In this document: one piece after another, positions 6,067-13,044 of the stretch
How positions within the stretch are numbered: the stretch's first letter is position 1
Layout: each line of letters opens with the position of its first letter
Assembly: GCA_027452245.1 (NCBI GenBank)
Contig: DAIDGW010000049.1
Location: 1 to 64,000, forward strand
Length of the DNA: 64,000 nt
Source: Acidobacteriaceae bacterium
GTDB taxonomy: Bacteria; Acidobacteriota; Terriglobia; Terriglobales; Acidobacteriaceae
Reading direction: 5' to 3'
Translations under genes and position numbers: made by a program
The notes under the pieces: model-generated
Database searches by the model: none
What the model saw: only the letters and a program-made list of their open reading frames with translations
Told to the model about the DNA's origin: nothing

Positions 6067-9000
6067 CTACCTATGAAGGGGCACGCTGGGCCGTACCGCG
6101 GTCGGTGCATGCGATCCAAAAACCGGTTGCGATCCCGATCCGCCCGCCACCGGAACGGTCTCAAGCACGTAACTCAGGCTGGCGGAGGTTCCCGCTGAAG
6201 CCGTCACATCCACCTGCAACTCGCCTCCAAACGATCCCGTAGAAGGCAAAACACTTGCCAGCCCGTTGATGTCGCTCAGCACGGTGTTTTGCGAAGAACT
6301 CAGAATCACGGGCATCCCGCCCTGCCCGCCCGCCGGCCCGTCTTCACCGGGGCGCACCACCAAGGTCTGAAACAATACGCCGGCGCCCAGCACCGGATTG
6401 GGCGACGGTGCCGAATCGGCCACGCGCACGCTGATCGCAGAAAATGCCTGTCCCGTGCTGAGGATCTGGTTCGACCCGTCGACCGGTTGCAGTTGCAGTT
6501 GCGCGAGCGGCATCACCGCGACCGCGATGGTCTGGCAAGGATTATTTGCCGGGGCCACGCACGCGCTGATCTGTACCGGGAAATTGACGTTCGTGAGCGA
6601 CAACGTGACCATTGCATATCCGCTGCCGCTCGTCGGTGCGCTGCCCGAACTTAACGAAGCCGCGCCCGCTCCGCTCATGATCTGGTAATTCACCGTCGTG
6701 CCGCTTTGCGGCGTGCCGTTGTTTACTACCCGCACCGTAAGGGGCGTCGACACCGTCGCCCCCTGGGCCACGAATATGTATGGCGTGGCGGCCGCGATCG
6801 CCAGGCCGTTCGCCGTCCCCAAAACCTGTGCGGTTACTGACTTCGGAGATTTATATGATGCCGGCGCGAGCGCAGCCGTGATATTTGCCACTCCTGCCAC
6901 CGTGGGTGTTGCGTAGGTGGAAGCAATGCCTGCTTCATCGCTCGAAGCCGAGCACGCGGTCGCGCCTCCGCAAGCAGACAGGCCAGTGTTGCTGGTGCTG
7001 CTCCAGGCCACTGTCGCGCCGCTGACGGGCGTGATGCCATCGGCCGCCAGCACTTTCACCTTAATCGCGCCCGGACACGCCGTTCCCACCGGAGCTGATG
7101 TCACCGACAGGGGCAGCAGCGTAATCGAGTCACTGGATTGCGCGCCGATCTCCACCGCTCCAGTCATGATTGAAGAAGCTCCTGTCGCGGGATCGCTGAT
7201 CGTGACCGTCTCTGTGCCGTCCGCGGCGGCGGGAATGTTCAGAATCATCTGGCCGGCATTGACACTCAGCGGAGTGACGGCATTGCTTCCGATCTTGACG
7301 GTTTGTCCCGCGGTGAGCCCAATGCCCTTGACCGTGATGGGGCCGCCGCTCGCGCTCAAGCGCGCGGGAGACACCGAATCGCCGTAGAGAATGTGCGCGT
7401 GGTAGTGATAATCGGGGCGCCCATCGCCGCGGAGATCCGAGATGCCAACGCGAAACTTTGTCGACGAAAGAATTTGCGCGTTCAACAAAGTCGTGCCCGC
7501 CTGCTGCGAGTTGAAGGGAGACGTCGTCAGCGCAGGCGGACGCATGCCTTGCGGATCGCTGGCGCTCCAGATCCCGATCACCGGCTGCGCTTTCAATTCA
7601 CTGGCGTTTCCCAGTTCATCGAGCGCGGTGACCGCGACCGACAGCGTGCGATTGGCTTGCGCGGTCAGTGAAAAATACGGTGTGTCGCCATATGTGTCGA
7701 GCGAACCGATCCAGTCTCCGGCGGCAGGAATGGGAGCAGGATTCGTCCATGTTGCTGACGCAGCCCAACTTGGCACCGGTTGCGCCGTGGCTGTCATCAG
7801 AATGTCTTGCGCCACATCGATTCCCGGAGAAGCATTTACCACGATCGGTTGCACCGTTCCCGAAGGCGCGACCTGATACGGTGCGTAGGGTCCAACTCCT
7901 TCCGACCAGAGCGCGTCGATGCCTTCGAGGGTCAGCTGATATTGCCCGCTGGTCGCGCCATTGGGAAAAGGCAACCCGGCGAGATCGAAGAAGCCTTGCT
8001 GCGAAGCCTGCGACGATCCCCAATTGCTGTAAGGATTTCCCATTGCGTCCAGAAATCCCGTGATGGGATTGCCCGCGTTTCCGGTGAATAGAAATCCCGA
8101 GACGGTGGAAAGCGAGTAGCGATGCGAAGGCTGGCCACTCACCGGATCGATCCAGCGCGCCACGACGTTCGCTCCCTGCATGGGTTGCGTTTGCTCCCCC
8201 GCGGCGCTGGTGAACCACACCGAGCCATAAATGCGCGCAGTGCTCGCGGCGAAGAGCTGTTTTCCGGGATAACTGGATTGATTCTGTGAAGTTACCGGAT
8301 AAAGCCGCGACACGGCAGCGACATCGTCGGCCGCCATGGCATAAGGATTGGCATAGCAGACCGTGACCGGAACGCATCCGCTCAAATCCATGAAGTGCAT
8401 GACCGGAAATCCCGCGAAGTCATCTGGCGTGGGATGGGGGTTTCCCGTGATCACGTTGAGATTCAGTTGCGACCAGCCGATACCCATAACTTGGCCTAGC
8501 ACGCGCACCAGGCGATATTCCAGATCCGTGAGTTGCGAACTCTGCAGCACGCACTGTCCGTTGATGACCACCAGCGCATGCTGGATAGCAGCGAACTGCC
8601 CGAAATTATCGGCGCCGCCGAAGACGGAATTGTAGAAGCACTCGTACGGATCGGACGAGCCGGCTCCCGCGCCCAGGAAAGCGTCGGTCACCGACCCGTC
8701 ATAGTCGTACACAATACCGACGGGAGTCGCGGTCGCGGTCGGCTGAATATCCAGAGGCATCGAGATCGTGCCATCGGAATTGCGCGTGACATTCGATCCA
8801 TTCACGTCTTCGGCGAGTTGGCCGCCGCTGCTGGCGGACAGTGCCGCCGTGGAAATCGAAGTCCACTGGCTGAACGCATCGGCAACAAGAGAATTCGCCG
8901 AGGCGTTGGGCAGAATCGGGCTAAGGTCTCCCTGATCAGTGAAATACGTGAGCGTGCCTTGCGGCCAGAGAACGGGCTGTCCGGTGACCGAGGGATCAAA

Positions 9001-9147
9001 GAAAGTTGTTCCGGCAACGTACCTGGGATTTCCCGCACGCGCAAAGAGCGTGCACAAAAAGACAAGCCCGGCCGCCGCGAGGGCGCGAAAGAAGAATGAT
9101 TGCGCGATGGGGACGATGCGATGCGTTTTCGCTGTGCTCATGCTCAC
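6067..9147 (-). CDS. Secreted matrixin-like protein with degenerate zinc site and IPT/Ig-like repeats
   Basis: The protein has 1026 residues. A signal peptide (about 1-38) precedes a matrixin/metzincin-like domain (about 40-285): a WPQGTLTYFTDQGDL strand, AFSQWTSISTAALSASSG, and the family's closing ADDVAAVSRLYP motif. The expected zinc motif HExxHxxGxxH is present by spacing but reads R215-V-L-G-Q219-V-M-G-I-G-W225, so all three zinc ligands and the catalytic Glu are replaced while the glycines stay. Downstream are a carboxypeptidase-regulatory-like segment (about 310-430), an IPT/TIG-like region around 600-690 and several Ig-like/invasin-like repeats to about 1010. It is therefore probably a non-enzymatic secreted binding or adhesion protein. 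It starts inside the stop of the upstream small secreted gene (ATGA overlap), so the two are coupled. Confidence 0.82.
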   Translation of the reverse strand: MSMSTAKTHRIVPIAQSFFFRALAAAGLVFLCTLFARAGNPRYVAGTTFFDPSVTGQPVLWPQGTLTYFTDQGDLSPILPNASANSLVADAFSQWTSISTAALSASSGGQLAEDVNGSNVTRNSDGTISMPLDIQPTATATPVGIVYDYDGSVTDAFLGAGAGSSDPYECFYNSVFGGADNFGQFAAIQHALVVINGQCVLQSSQLTDLEYRLVRVLGQVMGIGWSQLNLNVITGNPHPTPDDFAGFPVMHFMDLSGCVPVTVCYANPYAMAADDVAAVSRLYPVTSQNQSSYPGKQLFAASTARIYGSVWFTSAAGEQTQPMQGANVVARWIDPVSGQPSHRYSLSTVSGFLFTGNAGNPITGFLDAMGNPYSNWGSSQASQQGFFDLAGLPFPNGATSGQYQLTLEGIDALWSEGVGPYAPYQVAPSGTVQPIVVNASPGIDVAQDILMTATAQPVPSWAASATWTNPAPIPAAGDWIGSLDTYGDTPYFSLTAQANRTLSVAVTALDELGNASELKAQPVIGIWSASDPQGMRPPALTTSPFNSQQAGTTLLNAQILSSTKFRVGISDLRGDGRPDYHYHAHILYGDSVSPARLSASGGPITVKGIGLTAGQTVKIGSNAVTPLSVNAGQMILNIPAAADGTETVTISDPATGASSIMTGAVEIGAQSSDSITLLPLSVTSAPVGTACPGAIKVKVLAADGITPVSGATVAWSSTSNTGLSACGGATACSASSDEAGIASTYATPTVAGVANITAALAPASYKSPKSVTAQVLGTANGLAIAAATPYIFVAQGATVSTPLTVRVVNNGTPQSGTTVNYQIMSGAGAASLSSGSAPTSGSGYAMVTLSLTNVNFPVQISACVAPANNPCQTIAVAVMPLAQLQLQPVDGSNQILSTGQAFSAISVRVADSAPSPNPVLGAGVLFQTLVVRPGEDGPAGGQGGMPVILSSSQNTVLSDINGLASVLPSTGSFGGELQVDVTASAGTSASLSYVLETVPVAGGSGSQPVFGSHAPTAVRPSVPLHR

Positions 9148-9779
9148 TCCTCTCCAGCCGCGCGCCGCACCGCGTGGATAAACTGGGTCAGCGGGACCGA
9201 TGACTTTCCGGGCGGCGCAATTTCCGAGCGAAAGGCCTGCCGGTGCAGAGGAGAAAGAGCAACGTCTCCGGCGGGATCAATGGCGAAGCGGCCCAACTCA
9301 CCGCCGACCGGGCTGGTCAGGCCGAGTTTGCTGGGAGGATAGAAGAACATCAGCAGGTGATCGCCGGGACGATAGCGCGGGGCGCCCGTCCAAAGTCCGG
9401 CCCATTCGTGGATGGTCAACTCACCCGCATTGGCGCCGCGCAGGGCGCGTTCCACCTGAAAGGTAACGGCGACGGTGGCAGCCGCCTGCTCGCGCGCGGG
9501 CGGGGTGCGGGTGATGGAAACCACAGTTCCGGCAAAGATGGTTCCGGAATGGCGCGCCAAGTTGGCGAACCCGAAATCTGCGGGCGATGACGGAAGCGGG
9601 CGAGGCAGAACCGGAACATGCGGTCCGGCCGGGGCGGAAAACGTTGGGGGCAGTGCCGGACGCGAGCGCAGCAGGCCGCCATCCTGGGAAGCTGAGGGCG
9701 CAAACACCTGCGCCAAAGTAATCGATGATGACAGGACCAGACGGAACAGGAGCAGACAACGGCAACATCTCCCTTGCAT
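9144..9779 (-). CDS. Small secreted protein with NTR/TIMP-like beta core
   Basis: This 211-residue protein (from the ATG at 9779; the track uses a GTG three codons earlier) has a signal peptide ending near SSSITLAQ. An AAGGTG sequence lies about 8 bases before the ATG. After a proline-rich linker, residues about 70-165 look like a beta-barrel: TIFAGTVVSI, VAVTFQVERALRG, ELTIHEWAGLW, RYRPGDHLLMFFYP. The pattern 'F.GTV..I ... V.F.VE...RG ... G...L.F' resembles the netrin/TIMP-like OB fold, but the usual cysteines are absent, so this is a weak structural analogy. It overlaps the start of the matrixin-like gene by 4 bases, implying coordinated production. I cannot assign a biochemical role. Confidence 0.6.
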   Translation of the reverse strand: MQGRCCRCLLLFRLVLSSSITLAQVFAPSASQDGGLLRSRPALPPTFSAPAGPHVPVLPRPLPSSPADFGFANLARHSGTIFAGTVVSITRTPPAREQAAATVAVTFQVERALRGANAGELTIHEWAGLWTGAPRYRPGDHLLMFFYPPSKLGLTSPVGGELGRFAIDPAGDVALSPLHRQAFRSEIAPPGKSSVPLTQFIHAVRRAAGEE

Positions 9780-10004
9780 GGGAAGCACCTTGCGAATCAG
9801 TCTGCTCGGAGGGACCGGGAAAAACAGGCGAGGGTAATCCTTTGGTGCTGAGGAAATCTGTGATGGATGTCACATGCGGCTGTGGAAATCCGGTGGAAGG
9901 TGCAATCCGGCGCAGGACGACGCGAGGAAATTCCGGTGACCACATGCCCTCGCGGAATAACTGCCCGTGGTTGTACGAACCGCCGGTAGTCCCCCCCTGT
10001 CTCG

Positions 10005-10034
10005 TTGACTTTGTTTTCCATTAAAACCTAAGAT
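10005..10034 (+). promoter_or_regulatory. Probable sigma-70 promoter of the Ser/Thr kinase gene
   Basis: TTGACT (10005-10010) and TAAGAT (10029-10034) are separated by 18 bases. A transcript from here would begin around 10041, downstream of the first in-frame ATG at 10033, which supports translation starting at 10087 instead. Confidence 0.45.
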
Positions 10035-10086
10035 GGCTGGATTCCTCCAGGGCCCTCGCACCATTCAGGAGAGACTTGCGCACAAC

Positions 10087-13044
10087 ATGATCGACCAGAC
10101 CATCTCCCACTATAAGGTTCTAGAAAAGCTGGGAGGCGGCGGCATGGGTGTAGTTTACAAAGCCGAAGACACCCGGCTGCACCGCTTCGTCGCGCTGAAA
10201 TTTCTTCCCGAAGAGGTGACACGAGACGCCTCGGCGCTGGCGCGCTTTCGGCGCGAGGCCCAGGCTTCGTCCGCGCTCAATCATCCCAATATCTGCACGA
10301 TCTACGACATTGGCGAGGAAAACGGCACGGCCTTCATTGTCATGGAGTATCTGGAGGGCTCGACCCTCAAGCACGTGATTGGCACCCGCCCGATCGAGCT
10401 GGAGAAGTTGCTGAATCTGGCCATTGAAGTGGCCGACGCGCTCGATGCGGCGCATGCCAAGGGCATCGTGCATCGCGACATCAAGCCGGCGAATATCTTT
10501 GTGACTTCGCGGGGACACGCCAAGGTGCTGGACTTCGGCCTGGCGAAAGTCACGCCCAATGGAAATCGCAGCGCGGATGCCAACGAGGCGACGCAGGCAA
10601 CCGCCGGGGAGGCGCACCTGACCAGTCCCGGCTCGGCACTTGGCACCGTCGCCTATATGTCGCCGGAGCAGGTTCGGGGCAAGGAACTTGATTCCCGCAC
10701 GGACTTGTTTTCCTTTGGAATTGTGCTGTACGAGATGGCCACCGGCACGATTCCTTTTTACGGCGAGACCTCGGGCGTGATCTTCGATTCGATTCTGAAC
10801 CGGGAGCCGGCAGCCCCGGTGCGGCTGAACCCGGGATTGCCGCCGAAACTGGAAGACATTATCAATCGCACTCTGGAGAAAGACCGCGACCTGCGCTATC
10901 AGCATGCGGCTGACATAAAAGCGGAGCTGATGCGGCTGCGGCGGGACCTGGACTCGCGGCGGGTGTCATCGGTCAGCGACTCGCAGGCCATGCCGGCCGA
11001 CGCTGCTCCGTCTATGTCGCGAGAGCGTTCGGGCTCTGAGCCGCGCCCCAGTGGATCGGCAGCGGCCGTGCGAATCAGCTCGGGGGCGCACGAAGCAGCT
11101 ACCGCCGGCTCTCCACGGAATTCCTGGAAATTTGTCATTCCGGCTGCGGTTACCTTGATGGTCGCCATGCTTGCCGGAGGACTTTACTGGCGCAAGCATC
11201 AGGTCCCGAAACTCACCGACAAAGATGAACTCATCCTTGCCGACTTTACCAACCAGACCGGCGATCCAGTATTTGATTCGACGCTGAAAGAGGCGCTCGC
11301 CATACAGTTGGAACAATCTCCGGTTCTGCAACTGGTCAGTGATGCCGAGTTGCACAGCAATCTCCCCTATCTCGGACAACCCAAAGATCAGAGAATCACC
11401 CCCGAACTGGCCGAGCAGTTGGGGCAGCGCCTGGGGGTGAAGGCATACTTGGCAGGCAGCATCGTAAGCTTGGGTTCCTCATACGTCATCCAGATCAACG
11501 CCGTGAACGTGGCCACCGGAGAAGTCTTCGGTCGCGAGCAAGTCACGGCCGCTGATAAGACCGCGGTGCTGAACGCCGTGTCGCAGGCCGCGACCGCCAT
11601 GCGGGCGCGCCTGGGCGAGTCCATGGCTTCGATTCAGAAGCTGACCACGCCCTACACCAACGTGACTACGGCATCGCTGCAGGCGTTTCACTCATTTTCG
11701 CTGGGAGAAAATGAGCACATCATGGGCCGGGACTTCCCCCAGGCTGTCGACTTCTATCAGCAGTCGGTGCAACTGGATCCGAGCTTCGCGATGGGATGGG
11801 CTCGGCTGGGTGTTTCTTACGCGAACGTGGGCTCCGTTTCGAAGGGGCTCGAGTATCTCAAAAAAGCGTACGACCTGCGCCAGCGCGTAACCGAACACGA
11901 GCGCATGTATATCGAGTCGCAGTACGAGCTTCAGCAGTTCGACATGCCCAAGGCTATCGAATCCTTCAAGCTTTTTGTGGCGACGTATCCGCGCGATGCA
12001 GCCGCCTGGAATAACCTTTCGACCGCCTACTCTTTGATCGGCGATTATCAGGCTGCTGCGGAAGGATTCAAGACGACATGGGAGGTTGCCCGCTGGGATA
12101 ATGTGGCAGCTACCAACACCGCGAGCAGCTACCTTACCATGGATCAGATTGGCCTGGGAGAACGCTATCTGAAGGAGGCCTTCGATCAGGGCGGCGCCGA
12201 TAATCTCAGCTATCAGGGCGCCGCGATGTTGGACGATTTTCTCTCCGGGCGCAGTGACTGGGAAAAGCACATCCAATGGGCAACTGGACGGCCTGACGGT
12301 TTCAATATGGACACCAACGCAGGCACCTACTATCTATTCCTCGGCAAAATGCATCAGGCGGAGAAGGAATGGGAGTTGGGGGCAACGCGGGCCCAGCAGG
12401 AACACATTCCCGATGCTGCCGGAACCTCGTACGCCCTGCTGGCGTTACATGATGCCCTCATCGGAAATTGCAATGGATCGCGCGGGGCCGCCCACAAGGC
12501 GCTGGCTCTTGACCATTCGATGGCCACCACTCCCGATGCAGCTATGGCTCTGGCGCTGTGCGGCGAAAGCTCCGCGGCGCTCAGCGAAGTCGCGCGCGCC
12601 GCCGCGGCGGCTCCAACTAACACCCTGTACACCGACCTGATCGTTCCCGAGGTCAAAGCGGCCGCCGCCCTGGCCGAACATCATCCCGAGCAGGTCGCCA
12701 CTCTGTTATCCTCCGCCGGTTCTTATGGACTGGTCTCGAAAATCGCTCAGCTCGAAGGCAGGGCTTCGCTGGAGATGAAGAATCCGCAGCAGGCCGTGAC
12801 GGATTTCGCCCCGGGCTTACGCTATCGCGGAGCCGGCCTGGCAGAAGGTGGCACGGGATCTCCTCAGGCGCCTGATTACGTTCTCTGTCTGCTGGGCACC
12901 GCGCGGGCGCAGGCGCAATTCAATAAGACCGCGGCCACCCGCAGCTACGAGCAACTGCTGGATATCTGGAAGAATGCCGACGCCGATTTCGTGCCCGCCC
13001 AGGAAGCGCGGCGCGAACTGGCATTGCTGAAGAAAGGAAGCTAA
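10087..13044 (+). CDS. Transmembrane Ser/Thr protein kinase with TPR output region
   Basis: The protein has 985 residues from the ATG at 10087. The ORF track starts 18 codons earlier, but the probable promoter overlaps that ATG and the family normally begins with MI.QTISHYK.LEKLG. The Pkn2/Hanks kinase domain spans about 1-270: glycine loop [17 protein letters not shown] lysine, catalytic H129-R-D-IKPAN, DFGLAKV, and [10 protein letters not shown] with APE-like SPE. A Ser/Pro-rich juxtamembrane segment leads to one TM helix near 349-368. Outside, about 375-515 is a FlgO/CsgG-like alpha-beta module ([21 protein letters not shown]), then about 540-950 holds TPR-like helical repeats. It is probably a membrane signalling kinase whose TPR region binds an extracytoplasmic partner. 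All catalytic residues look intact. Confidence 0.93.

Follow-up and report, generated by a model that had tools for sequence, protein, structure and literature searches.

A matrixin-like protein without a zinc site, and the adjoining gene of predicted NTR/TIMP-like fold, in the Acidobacteriaceae

Introduction

Within a 64,000-nucleotide stretch of an Acidobacteriaceae contig (hereafter, the window), an initial annotation pointed to a matrixin-like protein whose HExxHxxGxxH motif keeps its spacing and structural glycines, while all three zinc ligands and the catalytic Glu have been replaced. The locus raises the question of whether such a domain is maintained by selection for something other than catalysis and, if so, what the gene that immediately precedes it contributes. 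Here, we follow the matrixin-like gene (M) and its upstream neighbor (X) through the Acidobacteriaceae and the wider phylum.

Results

Architecture of the two-gene unit

X and M lie on the same strand, the end of X and the beginning of M being only a few bases apart (Table 1). Translation of M may begin at GTG 9147 or, as is likelier, at ATG 9141, which has GGAGAGGAG ahead of it and stands just past the TGA of X. The M sequence includes a signal peptide, the end of which is conserved among homologues as A38-G39-G/N40-P41, as well as the matrixin landmarks TLTYFTDQ, AFSQW, YRLVRVLGQVMGIGWSQ and ADDVAAVSRLYP, all of which the initial annotation had listed and which are present in the translated ORF. 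The replaced motif likewise reads as annotated, with R215-V-L-G-Q219-V-M-G-I-G-W225 filling the pattern R215-V-x-x-Q219-x-x-G-x-x-W225. C-terminal to the matrixin-like domain of ~250 residues, M extends for ~700 more residues, where IPT/Ig-like repeats had been proposed; the IPT/TIG domain passes the Pfam cut-off, whereas the Big_1 stretch remains below it. A Pfam scan of the window M protein alone returned no matrixin match.

Table 1. Coordinates of the features of the M and X genes and of neighboring ORFs in the window.
Feature	Position	Strand	Basis
Gene X, first gene of the two-gene unit; 214-aa secreted protein with a predicted NTR/TIMP-like OB-fold domain at residues ~73-214	9144..9788	(-)	AF2, Foldseek, neighborhood conservation
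Gene M, matrixin-like, without zinc site	6067..9147	(-)	ORF, 1026 aa from GTG
Signal peptide of M, ~residues 1-38, ending FARAG	9034..9147	(-)	Read from sequence
Putative pseudo-matrixin domain of M, residues 39-290	8278..9033	(-)	Homology to intact matrixins, 255 columns
Replaced zinc site R215-V-L-G-Q-V-M-G222-I-G-W225, at the position of HExxHxxGxxH	8473..8505	(-)	Sequence and alignments
Met-turn Met250 and new His251 (Phe/Tyr in intact relatives)	8395..8400	(-)	Alignments
IPT/TIG domain of M, residues 590-654	7186..7380	(-)	Pfam PF01833, E 3.2e-6, above cut-off
Ig-like Big_1 stretch of M, residues 706-770	6838..7032	(-)	Pfam PF02369, E 2.6e-4, 21.5 bits against a cut-off of 34.9, sub-threshold
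Ser/Thr protein kinase carrying TPR repeats, oriented divergently to X-M	10033-13044	(+)
ORF, 678 aa	15986-18022	(-)	No Pfam match at 1e-5
ORF, 334 aa	18162-19166	(-)	No Pfam match at 1e-5

The zinc site is replaced throughout the family

An M homologue is encoded in 65 of 150 related genomes, a few of these homologues being intact paralogues. We aligned 125 M sequences, 86 of them degenerate and 39 intact, the latter including two (L129 and L133) with small motif changes that a strict pattern missed. HExxHxxGxxH is kept by none of the 86 M family members of the Acidobacteriaceae, the one bacterial family to which all degenerate sequences belong, and the window copy is therefore not a lone exception among homologues that retain the motif. 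The motif is intact in the 39 other relatives, which span the phylum. In every degenerate sequence the first His is replaced by Arg and both motif glycines, Gly218 and Gly222, are retained; the zinc site is replaced, with the structural glycines staying as annotated, in 86/86. Trp stands for the third His in 78/86, and Val or Ala occupies the position of the catalytic Glu in most sequences.

Five landmarks are conserved across the family: R215, G218, G222, W225 and, in the Met-turn, M250. Arg215, Gly218 and Gly222 are invariant in a 55-sequence alignment of M, whereas residue 219, which aligns with the second His, has become Arg in 51 of the 86 degenerate sequences and Ser, Asn, Gly, Gln or others in the remainder. 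The proposed RVxxQxxGxxW signature thus survives in its Arg, its glycines and, largely, its Trp; its Gln, on which the annotation had laid stress, is variable among homologues and was rejected as a conserved position. Met250 is kept in at least 98% of sequences; the next residue is His in 79/86 degenerate sequences, whereas intact relatives mostly carry Phe or Tyr there.

Descent from active matrixins and constraint on the domain

Profile-profile comparison (hhalign) of M with its intact relatives gave a probability of 99.85 and an E-value of 1e-30 over 255 columns, with RVLGQVMGIGW placed opposite HEFGHLSGLDH without a gap. The spacing of the motif, which the annotation had described as exact, is thus homologous rather than a chance resemblance. 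The intact relatives match the Pfam Matrixin family PF00413, several of them above its cut-off, and Pfam and PDB sequence searches with the profile of degenerate M returned no significant match. The AF2 model of the domain, computed from four input sequences only, reached a pLDDT of 28.8; the predicted metzincin fold of M instead rests on profile homology to the intact, Pfam-recognized matrixins.

In a tree of 90 M sequences, from which the motif columns had been removed, all 51 sampled degenerate sequences fall on one side of a single branch (SH-aLRT 100, length 1.4), and their sister is an intact group from another family (support 92). The tree thus needs one change; read most simply, a single loss of the zinc site was followed by lasting constraint on the domain. 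Between near pairs, dN/dS of the M domain is 0.06-0.15. Together with the invariant R215, G218 and G222 and the replaced sites in 86/86 sequences, these results bear out the suggestion that selection has acted on the domain without catalysis.

The same values weigh against the idea that M is a decaying pseudogene. Apparently broken copies exist in a few genomes, with an internal TAG in G028 (L065) and fragments in G034 (L064), from which we conclude that M is dispensable in some species. M is also absent from several complete genomes of the genus. Long open frames, the low dN/dS and pocket residues that stay invariant across 86 sequences nevertheless run counter to decay, which we regard as extremely improbable for the family and which the dN/dS values and the conservation rule out for M.

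Do clade-specific residues form a new site?

Conservation of this kind could also mean that M is not a pseudoenzyme, having acquired a new site, catalytic or metal-binding, that consists of the clade-specific residues R215, H190, D180, E113, H251 and C170/C199/C264. Such sites have arisen in some supposed pseudokinases. R215, H190, C170 and C199 reach at least 99% conservation in the dead clade and are absent at the aligned positions of intact relatives, and D180 and E113 are nearly clade-specific. The loops that carry C170, D180 and E113 align uncertainly to the intact relatives, however, the cysteines may be disulfides, and no known catalytic constellation was recognized among these residues; we consider a new site unlikely, although it is the foremost competitor of the model favored below.

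Pseudoenzymes commonly serve as decoys or regulators (PMC11266112), and M might in this way act as a dominant-negative on an active matrixin of its own cell; in a small number of genomes within the family, such as G054 and G058, an intact pair does coexist with the dead pair. By contrast, searches of this genome and of 45 genomes belonging to the genus turned up no intact family member, and we rejected regulation of an active paralogue for the genus of the window. Most carriers thus have no active relative to regulate, which renders a decoy function very unlikely overall, while leaving it conceivable in those genomes that encode both.

Predicted fold of X

An AF2 model of X residues 60-214, built from three sequences, reached a pLDDT of 78.8 and a pTM of 0.75. 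Searching the PDB with this model (Foldseek) yielded five matches with E <0.001, namely four entries of agrin NtA and the NTR domain of PCOLCE (E 2e-4 to 8e-4), and TIMP-1 (E ~1e-3) and TIMP-2 entries dominate the ranks right below. The TM-scores against these NTR/TIMP structures are moderate (0.33-0.57). On the basis of these best matches, the domain is predicted to adopt an NTR/TIMP-like OB fold. At the level of sequence, none of 44 X members has a Pfam TIMP/NTR match at E 1, and a PDB sequence search with X found no relative.

The mature window X contains no Cys, and there is none among the conserved X columns; the N-terminal Cys1 and the conserved disulfides of TIMPs were sought and are absent. 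Because it lacks the TIMP cysteines, X would have a TIMP-like fold and yet not be a TIMP. The dN/dS of X is mostly 0.16-0.33.

X accompanies both dead and active M

Homologues of X occupy the same upstream place beside degenerate and intact M throughout the phylum, and in a redundant set X lies upstream on the same strand for 125 of 158 M ORFs. We also searched 199 genomes of the phylum with an X profile, made without reference to M. Among the strong matches (E <~1e-15), 36/38 adjoin M, 33 of these adjacencies being read from coordinates by eye and three confirmed from fetched sequence; of the two that remain, one sits at the end of a contig and the other is without M. In this search, each Acidobacteriaceae genome with X carries one copy, adjoining M. 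Six loci from a handful of genomes in the same family and class hold separate intact X-M pairs; in G054 and G058 the intact pair lies alongside a dead one.

X is retained beside dead M in most genera. One subclade of the Acidobacteriaceae keeps M with X undetectable, and M can therefore function without X there. At four loci of this subclade, a thioredoxin-reductase-like ORF, read by eye, lies upstream of M.

In other families, weak X matches include more than 20 cases in which an X-like domain and a downstream HExxHxxGxxH share one long ORF, and the motif is intact in all of these fusions. All nine fused proteins that were scanned match Pfam Matrixin, eight of them above its cut-off. At 17 loci the X-like domain is seen to lie N-terminal to the intact metzincin, fn3, PKD or IPT domains often follow, and one genus (g151) has several fusion copies per genome. 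Since X precedes both active and dead M and is fused to metzincins elsewhere, we interpret the window as encoding a pseudo-protease with a retained partner of TIMP-like fold. The X and M trees are correlated (r 0.83 over 104 pairs and 0.92 over 68 degenerate pairs), which vertical descent alone may explain.

These arrangements bear on whether X could be a genuine inhibitor of the TIMP type, directed at another secreted protease, its place beside M being a relic. The NTR/TIMP fold match is compatible with inhibition, and some bacterial metzincins have dedicated inhibitors. Set against this, the mature X N-terminus is without Cys, X still adjoins M after the loss of catalysis, and elsewhere the X-like domain and M form a single protein, such that we find this reading improbable.

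Discussion

M of these soil bacteria is a secreted protein descended from a zinc protease, and the data taken together suggest that the pair now works by binding instead of cleavage. We favor a model, to which we assign a moderate probability, in which the X-M unit derives from an ancestral pair of TIMP-fold protein and matrixin, M having become a non-catalytic binder and X serving more likely as its folding, export or assembly partner. The ancestral NTR/TIMP-fold protein and zinc matrixin would have been inherited as a two-gene secreted unit. As the sequences show, M was stripped of every zinc ligand and of the catalytic Glu in the ancestor of the Acidobacteriaceae, in an event confined to one lineage, and purifying selection has since maintained it with Arg at the first His position, mostly Trp at the third, and His past the Met-turn Met. 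With Arg215 occupying the place of the metal, the former substrate cleft may bind X, an extracellular ligand or both, and the complex may be displayed outside the cell by the Ig/IPT arms. Non-catalytic binding is the function that we favor for M. X could be the folding, export or assembly partner of M, or its ligand; such a partner role appears more likely than that of a pure inhibitor, because X has outlived the protease activity of M.

A bolder version of the favored model, which we hold to be doubtful, would posit a phylum-wide acidobacterial partnership of TIMP-fold proteins and matrixins, in operons and fusions, that is independent of that in animals; in the Acidobacteriaceae it would have become a purely structural extracellular complex, with the guanidinium of Arg215 replacing zinc as the anchor of the partner.

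A bacterial protein of predicted NTR/TIMP fold that is tied to matrixins by operon and fusion across a phylum bears on the origin of protease/partner pairs. The Acidobacteriaceae branch provides a natural experiment: with catalysis gone and the partner still in place, it can separate inhibition from roles in folding or assembly. M itself is an unusually clean, family-wide pseudo-metzincin in bacteria.

Comparison with known systems

TIMPs have been described as arising in the eumetazoan ancestor (PMC10755359), and we found no description of the acidobacterial X-M pair in the open-licence literature. TIMPs, agrin NtA and the PCOLCE NTR domain are the best structural matches of X, from which X differs in having no significant sequence match, no TIMP cysteines and no Cys1 zinc chelator. 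The closest precedent for the pair is Mtz-Tim of Listeria, whose authors found no earlier record of TIMP-like proteins in bacteria (PMC8235301). In both systems a secreted metzincin is encoded next to a secreted protein that has a TIMP-like predicted fold and no sequence similarity to TIMPs (PMC8235301). Mtz is active and cleaves Tim (PMC8235301), whereas M is dead and, since it lacks the catalytic residues, cleavage of X would not be expected. Moreover, the Gram-positive locus of Mtz is derived from a phage and has the gene for Tim, a lipoprotein, in second place (PMC8235301), whereas X comes first and looks Sec-secreted, without a lipobox.

With respect to M, several of its intact relatives match the PF00413 Matrixin family (Peptidase M10) above its cut-off, and the motif spacing and the Met-turn are shared, whereas the window M, devoid of any zinc ligand or Glu, escapes the family model. 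Pseudo-metallopeptidases, including the ADAM pseudoproteases, have been reviewed (PMC11266112), and among substituted HExxH motifs the exchange of His for Arg or Lys is reported to be over-represented (PMC3650047). The ADAM pseudoproteases and the CLCAs with substituted HExxH show a conserved loss of zinc ligands like that of M (PMC11266112, PMC3650047). In contrast to these, M has lost all of its ligands together with the Glu, within one bacterial family, and has retained its partner gene.
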